From Verrucomicrobiales bacterium (GTDB taxonomy: Bacteria > Verrucomicrobiota > Verrucomicrobiia > Verrucomicrobiales > DEV007), in contig JARGPH010000003.1 of assembly GCA_029213065.1 (NCBI GenBank), positions 61,414 to 104,579 of the forward strand: DNA of 43,166 nucleotides. Direction: 5' to 3'. A program made the position numbers and the translations under genes. Under the pieces are notes generated by a model. The model searched no databases, was not told the DNA's origin, and was given only the letters and a program-made list of their open reading frames with translations. This document shows, piece after piece, positions 5,348 to 43,166 of the stretch (the first letter of the stretch is position 1; the number at the start of each line of letters is the position of its first letter).

Positions 5348-5884
5348 CTAAAACTTGTTCTTCCACATCATCGATTCGACGGGGAGAGGGGTGCGGTCGT
5401 TGTATTTGGCGGAATCTTTGGTGCTGTAGGGATTCAAAACCTCTCCCTGCGTCAGGAAGTAAATGAGCTGGCCGACAGGCATGCCTTCGTAGACACGGAC
5501 GGGCTGTTTCACCGAGATTTCGAGGGTCCAGTAGTTGCAGAATCCCACGTCGCCTTTTCCGGCGGTGGCGTGGATGTCCATGCCGAGGCGTCCGACGCTG
5601 GATTTTCCTTCGAGAAAAGGAACCGCAGTGTGGCTCTCGGTGTATTCCACGGTTGACCCGAGGTAGTTGATTTGCGGCTCGAGAACGAAGCCCTCCTCGG
5701 GGATTTCGAAATGCTCGATTTCGTTGTGCTCTCTCGCATCGAGGACACGGTTTTTGTAAGTCGCGAGGTGCTTGCTGAGATGGACATCGTAGCTGTTCGT
5801 CCCGAGGCAGGCGCGATCATACGGTTCGATAACGATTTCGCCCCGCTCCATGGAGGCGAGGATTTCGGAGTCAGCAAGGATCAT
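5348..5884 (-). CDS. dcd: dCTP deaminase
   Basis: This enzyme deaminates dCTP to dUTP in pyrimidine deoxynucleotide synthesis, in the cytoplasm, as a trimer of dUTPase-like beta folds. The length of 178 residues is typical. Visible motifs are the substrate-binding GKSSVGRLG (residues 93-101), the HATAGKGDVGF segment, the catalytic Glu in TLEIS (E122) and EGMPVGQLIYF (residues 133-143). The C-terminal tail with YNDRTPLP closes the active site. The TAG wording also occurs in bifunctional dCTP deaminase/dUTPases, so direct dUMP formation is possible but not shown. The gene is divergent from cmk across a 126-base intergenic region, which puts two pyrimidine nucleotide genes side by side. Confidence 0.95.
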   Translation of the reverse strand: MILADSEILASMERGEIVIEPYDRACLGTNSYDVHLSKHLATYKNRVLDAREHNEIEHFEIPEEGFVLEPQINYLGSTVEYTESHTAVPFLEGKSSVGRLGMDIHATAGKGDVGFCNYWTLEISVKQPVRVYEGMPVGQLIYFLTQGEVLNPYSTKDSAKYNDRTPLPVESMMWKNKF

Positions 5885-6010: not shown

Positions 6011-6617
6011 ATGAGCAGCAACGCACCTATGATCATTGCCATCGACGGCCCCGCCGCGTCAGGGAAAAGTACCGTCGCAAAACGAATCGCCTCCGAACTT
6101 GAGGCTGTTTTCGTGAATTCGGGTGCGATGTACCGGGCCTTCACCTGGTGGGTTCTCGAAAATGAGGTCGATCCGGCTGATCCGGGTGCTGTGGTTGCGC
6201 TGCTCGCTAAAACCAAATTGGAGTCCGGTCAAAATGATCGCGTCGGCACCGTCTCCATCGATGGGAAATTGATGAGCCGTGCTGAACTCAGCGAAGAGCG
6301 TGTTAACTCAAACGTCTCTTCTGTGGCTTCTGTTCCAGAGGTTCGAGCGCGCCTCGTAGCTGAACAGCGGGCTTACGCTGAGCAAAACAGCGTTGTCATG
6401 GAAGGACGCGATATAGGGTCGGTCGTGTTTCCAGAGACTCCCTACAAGTTTTACATCGATGCCTCTCCCGAAGTTCGTGAGCAACGCCGGCGCGCCGCGG
6501 GCGTCACCTCTCGTTATTCCGGACGATGCCACTGTCGTCGACAGCTCCTACATGGGCGTTGATGAAGTCGTCGCAGCTGTGTTGACTGCGATTCGTGAAA
6601 AGCAGGCCGGGGATTGA
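6011..6617 (+). pseudogene. cmk: Cytidylate kinase, disrupted by an internal deletion and frameshift
   Basis: Cytidylate kinase makes CDP/dCDP from CMP/dCMP and is normally conserved. The first part is clearly CMP kinase: P-loop GPAASGKST, then NSGAMYRA, then VVMEGRDIGSVVFP and FYIDASPEVREQRRRAAG. That frame then runs into an unrelated tail and stops at 6560-6562. The missing end continues in another frame from about 6498: RASPLVIPDDA, VVDSSYMGVDEVV and a helical tail ending at the TGA at 6615-6617. RASPL matches the motif that normally follows the LID region, so about 25-30 codons of the arginine-rich lid are gone and the frame is shifted near 6488-6503. The cause is a real lesion or an assembly error. 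A functional product from either fragment is unlikely. Confidence 0.85.
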
Positions 6618-42811: not shown

Positions 42812-43166
42812 CTAGTTCTTAGGCTGGCCGGCGAAGAGAGCCTGGCGGGCGGCTTCGATTTTTTTGTCCTGTTCCGCGATGAGCGGGTCGAACATGGGGA
42901 TTTCTTTGGCGTTCTGGCCCTGCTCGTGTTTACGGAAGAGGAAGAGATAGGTTTCGTTGGCAGGTCTCCAGCGATGGAAAAAGAGCCGGTTCTTTTCAAT
43001 GATCGCCGCCATGAGTGGTGAATCAGCGCTATTTTGAGCGGCGGAAGTTTCGCCGTAGCCGAGTTCTTTGACGAGCTCACGCCCGAGGAGTTGGTAACCT
43101 GACTCGCTGTAGTGAACCCCGTTGTTGGTCAGGGCGGGGCTGGCGACTTCACCATTGAAGTCGTCA
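42812..43166 (-). CDS. SGNH/GDSL hydrolase, C-terminal part (5' end beyond window)
   Basis: The open frame enters from the right edge and ends at the TAG at 42814-42812. The visible 117 residues contain LTNNGVHYSESGYQLLGREL, which holds the catalytic His of the SGNH fold. After a linker comes KNRLFFHRWRPANETYLFLF and RKHEQGQNAKEIPMFDPLI, the conserved C-terminal extension of PVC-group SGNH hydrolases found beside HEAT/heme proteins. It would act as an esterase, probably on acetylated or acylated glycans. The gene precedes the heme protein gene by 32 bases in the same direction, so one operon is likely. The catalytic Ser region is outside the window. Confidence 0.9.
   Translation of the reverse strand, partial: DDFNGEVASPALTNNGVHYSESGYQLLGRELVKELGYGETSAAQNSADSPLMAAIIEKNRLFFHRWRPANETYLFLFRKHEQGQNAKEIPMFDPLIAEQDKKIEAARQALFAGQPKN

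Follow-up and report, generated by a model that had tools for sequence, protein, structure and literature searches.

A lid-deleted, frame-broken CMP kinase gene in a Verrucomicrobiales draft genome: local assembly error or very recent loss

Introduction

The closest described counterparts of the gene reported here are the CMP kinases (Cmk) of Yersinia pseudotuberculosis and Escherichia coli, which belong to the same family; the chain sequence that covers entry 2cmk matched the gene product (E 7.3e-25). According to excerpts from PMC3603445, Asp185 and Arg188, both in the lid of the Y. pseudotuberculosis enzyme, contact CDP in a model, equivalent contacts exist in E. coli Cmk, and substitution of the lid arginine (Arg188Ala) leaves the Yersinia enzyme with no activity. 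A mutagenesis primer quoted there is part of the basis for placing Arg188 as the last arginine of the RDxxDxxR motif (PMC3603445, in part). The same excerpts describe a requirement for cmk that differs among bacteria: inactivation is not lethal in E. coli, on conflicting data and with a growth defect and cold sensitivity; it is reported as non-lethal in Salmonella; the Y. pseudotuberculosis mutant is viable with a growth defect; and the gene is reported as essential in Bacillus subtilis and Streptococcus pneumoniae (PMC3603445).

The gene analyzed here lies in a Verrucomicrobiales draft genome (5.9 Mb, 80 contigs, 96.2% complete, 3.0% contaminated), within a 43,166-nt stretch of DNA (hereinafter referred to as the window) that forms part of a scaffold of 278,656 bases (C52). 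It corresponds to a short-lid Verrucomicrobia form of bacterial Cmk (TIGR00017, PF02224), to which 162 codons before and 38 codons after a junction in the lid can be aligned, and a divergent dcd-like neighbor accompanies it in the nearest relative as in the window. Unlike that form, the gene in the window lacks 50 nt of the lid, changes frame, and has lost RDxxDxxR; the counterparts of lid Asp185 and Arg188 of the Yersinia and E. coli enzymes are absent (PMC3603445, in part; PDB 2CMK). The gene is of a known kind, common in bacteria and serving to recycle CMP, and not a new gene type.

Results

Identity and layout of the cmk locus

The gene was identified as cmk, encoding (d)CMP kinase, in agreement with the preliminary description. 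The 183-aa ORF matched PF02224 with 167.5 bits (profile positions 1 to 150 of 211) and exceeded the curated cut-off of TIGR00017 (154.8 bits against 135.55), with only profile positions 3 to 156 of 217 covered. The features of the locus are listed in Table 1. The N-terminal frame was open from its ATG to the RRRA of the lid, after which an unrelated tail ran to a stop codon at 6560 to 6562. The C-terminal part, ASPLVIPDDATVVDSSYMGVDEVVAAVLTAIREKQAGD, was encoded in the +1 frame from ASPLVIPDD to GD (6501 to 6614; stop codon at 6615 to 6617), and cmk was thus without a single open frame across the whole domain. The DNA of the 3' part was 77% identical to the same part of the cmk of the nearest relative over 106 nt (E 2e-19) and is not a chance match. 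The dcd-like neighbor was 94% identical in the nearest relative, and the divergent arrangement was common to both.

Table 1. Features of the cmk locus (positions in the window).
Feature	Position	Strand	Basis
cmk 5' part: P-loop, NMP-binding domain, GRDIG, to lid RRRA	6011..6496	+	PF02224 and TIGR00017 matches
Deletion junction: 4 nt, against 54 nt in the nearest relative	6497..6500	+	Comparison with L003
cmk 3' part, ASPLVIPDD to stop, +1 frame	6501..6617	+	Translation; 77% nucleotide identity to L003
Out-of-frame tail of the truncated ORF	6497..6562	+	Whole ORF 6011-6562, 183 aa
dCTP deaminase-like gene (dcd), intact, divergent neighbor	5348..5884	-	PF22769, 117.9 bits

Size and position of the deletion

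The nearest relative was locus L003 of genome G022, with a protein identity of 89% over 164 residues, and comparison with it bore out a lid deletion accompanied by a frameshift. Between RRRA and ASPL, 18 codons (54 nt) were present in L003 and four nucleotides in the window. The net deletion is thus 50 nt, or 16.7 codons, and the frame changes by +1. The loss of 25 to 30 codons (70 to 95 bases) given in the preliminary description was therefore an overestimate, and the break, correctly placed in the lid, had its exact site moved to between 6496 and 6501. Codon 163, at the junction, encoded Ala in the window and Glu or Gln in all 27 relatives of the genus when compared by eye, so that the event was more than a simple excision, namely a deletion with an adjacent change.

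A GGC on both sides of the junction was deduced from the codons of relatives, and the junction can be read as a real microhomology deletion; no direct repeat flanking the junction was reported in a repeat search around it. The junction was GC-rich, as had been noted earlier: the GC content of the 40 bases from 6474 to 6513 was 0.75, and among 40-mers sampled at 10-base steps on scaffold C52, 99.4% had a lower value. This richness may in part be a product of the deletion itself. The junction sequence occurred once in the assembly.

Length of the lid and loss of the RDxxDxxR motif

The distance from GRDIG to RDxxDxxR was 40 residues in all 27 same-genus loci and in two loci from other families. 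In a set of 70 loci from genome contigs, which were partly common to the 27-locus set, it was 40 residues in 64 loci, 51 in two (both Acidobacteriaceae records), and 46 in one, with three loci giving no measure. Solved Cmk chains contained about 11 more residues in this stretch in the alignments. The lids of the Verrucomicrobia group are naturally shorter by about 11 residues, and the gap measured against a textbook Cmk looks larger than the real deletion because those residues were never in these genes.

RDxxDxxR occurred in none of the three forward frames of the window and was present in 69 of the 70 genome-contig loci, the exception (L075) being cut by a contig end. The 50-nt deletion removes the ligand-binding half of the lid in addition to shifting the frame. 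We take Arg188 to be the last arginine of the motif partly on the basis of the E. coli sequence. With the motif lost and the Arg188Ala enzyme of Yersinia inactive, the product is presumed inactive, and cmk as written in the window should not yield an active CMP kinase.

Comparison with relatives and signs of selection

The comparison with close relatives proposed in the preliminary description left the window alone with a broken lid: each of the 27 same-genus cmk loci fetched had one open frame through the lid and kept RDxxDxxR at identical spacing. Among the 32 other genomes of the genus, 27 exceeded the TIGR00017 cut-off, two (G002 and G017) contained fragments, and no TIGR00017 match was found in G003, G006, and G031, which were 53%, 86%, and 91% complete, respectively.

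Relative to L003, dN/dS was 0.035 for the 5' half (163 codons) and 0.049 for the 3' half (36 codons), both rough values because dS was about 2 and near saturation; for the neighboring dcd it was 0.036. None of the 59 genus-invariant residues at positions readable in the window was changed; in a leave-one-out count among the 27 relatives, 19 showed no change and eight showed one to seven. Outside the junction, both halves of cmk look constrained on these comparisons, like those of a working gene. A long-standing pseudogene was rejected on the same dN/dS values and invariant residues, with the proviso that a very young pseudogene would also be without a signal of relaxation. The rest of the gene shows no decay, from which we infer that the lesion is either very young or nonexistent in the organism.

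Assembly quality and frame scans

Scaffold C52 contained four runs of N (47, 10, 10, and 10), of which the first ended just before the start of the window and the second began just after its end. Ten further 10-N gaps were present in the 60 other stretches sampled, and we take such repeated gaps to reflect short-read scaffolding. A minus-strand gene at about 42813 to 43166 and beyond (about 104226 to 105261 in C52) was cut by the 10-N gap past the window end, and its frame changed across that gap.

For the codon-usage frame scan, the model was trained on 61 stretches from 61 of the 80 contigs (1,159,733 bases including Ns). It covered all contigs but C62 to C80 (19 of 80), most of them by the first 20 kb alone; eight short contigs were read as N. 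Ten of the 166 same-strand frame changes that the scan detected were flagged, cmk among them. Of the other nine flags, three coincided with N gaps and two (L168 and L183) were left aside; the remaining four, read by eye in translation, were taken to be false, being gene ends with overlap or low complexity. With L168 and L183 set apart and N gaps excepted, the 61-stretch sample yielded cmk as its one clear indel lesion. An earlier scan of C52 alone gave 18 same-strand frame changes; cmk was not among them, and only the change at the N gap near 104580 was without a start codon nearby. When C52 was compared with a 300-kb contig of a relative, 28 of 270 ORFs were matched and four were orthologue-like, which made the comparison of little use; its sole multi-frame flag was the dcd-cmk locus, where an ORF spanned dcd and the reverse of cmk.

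In the part of the assembly sampled, errors that break a frame seem to be uncommon. An error-rich assembly as a general state was not borne out by the 61-stretch scan, and the case for an artefact is thereby lowered but not removed.

Other kinases and the pyrimidine route

The genome encoded UMP kinase (pyrH) and CTP synthase (pyrG). No second cmk was found in this 96%-complete assembly, in which PF02224 and TIGR00017 each matched in one place and PF13189 in none. The second CMP/UMP kinase that the preliminary description named as one possible implication of a true lesion was accordingly not supported, and with pyrH and pyrG present a second kinase is not required.

PF00406, the adenylate kinase family, matched in three places. 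One of the products, an adenylate-kinase-like protein of 210 aa, scored 89.8 bits against UMP_CMP_kin_fam, far below the cut-off of 207.6, and 117.6 bits against the adenylate kinase model, below the cut-off of 168. Of 33 genus genomes, 28 had a close copy of its gene and 24 combined it with a cmk above the cut-off; a match was found in 29 genomes, and G022, which had only a remoter paralogue, was left out of the count. Being widespread in genomes that also have cmk, the gene cannot count as a replacement specific to the present genome, and the paralogue was ruled out as a substitute for cmk on that distribution.

Nucleoside diphosphate kinase (ndk; PF00334) gave no match in this 96%-complete genome (G000). 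The profile matched in 28 of 33 genus genomes and was absent from G000, G001 (93% complete), G003, G008, and G022, so that the nearest relative (63% complete) was also without it. The gene directly upstream of ndk was common to 10 of 12 genus genomes inspected. This usual neighbor was not found in the present genome either, an empty result that is uninformative without a genome known to match. With the neighbor also absent, a missing stretch of assembly fits better than a loss of ndk alone, and the data suggest such a gap.

Discussion

The lesion in cmk may have arisen as a local error at a GC-rich junction in a draft scaffold that contains gaps; in an alternative form of this reading, the consensus captured a minority variant. 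Either way, the living lineage would keep an intact cmk. We give a local assembly or consensus error about an even chance and slightly favor it over a true recent loss. It is consistent with the intact lids and identical motif spacing of all 27 genus loci, with dN/dS values like those of dcd, and with the absence of change at the 59 invariant positions. The alanine at codon 163, which marks no plain excision, points the same way, as do the four N gaps of C52, three of them exactly 10 N, and the extreme GC content at the junction. Against it, no further clear frame lesion was found outside N gaps in the 61 stretches (L168 and L183 left aside), a GGC microhomology is possible, the deletion may itself account for some of the GC richness, and the absence of decay would equally fit a young real deletion. 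Moreover, an intact cmk was not present in every genome of the genus (none in three, fragments in two), and loss of cmk is viable in some bacteria, as far as the excerpts from PMC3603445 go.

A true and very recent 50-nt loss-of-function deletion in the cmk of this lineage or strain falls a little short of an even chance in our estimation. The possible GGC microhomology, set against the codons of the genus, and the lack, outside N gaps, of a second clear frame lesion in the sample (again with L168 and L183 left aside) argue for it, and so do the presence of pyrH and pyrG and the three genus genomes without cmk, all of them incomplete. Since cmk is essential in some bacteria and dispensable at the cost of a growth defect in others, a real loss would still need no second kinase (PMC3603445, in part). 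The deletion would, however, have to be very young, given the unchanged invariant residues and a dN/dS typical of a working gene; all 27 same-genus loci fetched are intact, and the scaffold is a draft with gaps, GC-rich at the junction. If the deletion is true, the cell would be impaired in recycling CMP and dCMP, with CTP still made de novo through PyrH and PyrG, and the organism would offer a natural cmk-deficient bacterium for studying the cost of lost CMP recycling. When a conserved gene has its frame broken in a draft genome, the reads should be consulted before any metabolic loss is concluded. It is improbable, in our view, that a free-living lineage has just lost its CMP kinase, before any decay, and is also truly without ndk, which would leave it with neither of the usual steps from CMP to CTP.

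That another kinase took over CMP phosphorylation and left cmk free to decay is very unlikely: the three PF00406 places and the score of the 210-aa protein against UMP_CMP_kin_fam speak for it, but that protein scores higher against the adenylate kinase model and misses both cut-offs, its gene has close copies across the genus, mostly in genomes that also have a cmk over the cut-off, and PF13189 has no match in the genome. Programmed +1 frameshifting that joins the two frames into a lidless enzyme working in another way is scarcely credible. Open frames do flank the junction, and conserved residues persist downstream of it, but the arrangement occurs in none of the 27 genus loci and the shift site lacks the stop codon that RF2-type shifts have. 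The fused product would still be without RDxxDxxR, and the Arg188Ala enzyme of Yersinia is inactive (PMC3603445, in part).

In three Verrucomicrobia records among the loci compared (L053, L059, and L088), the cmk frame ran on into about 200 further residues, which we take to resemble a PlsC-type acyltransferase. Fusions of cmk with an acyltransferase gene may thus occur in these records.
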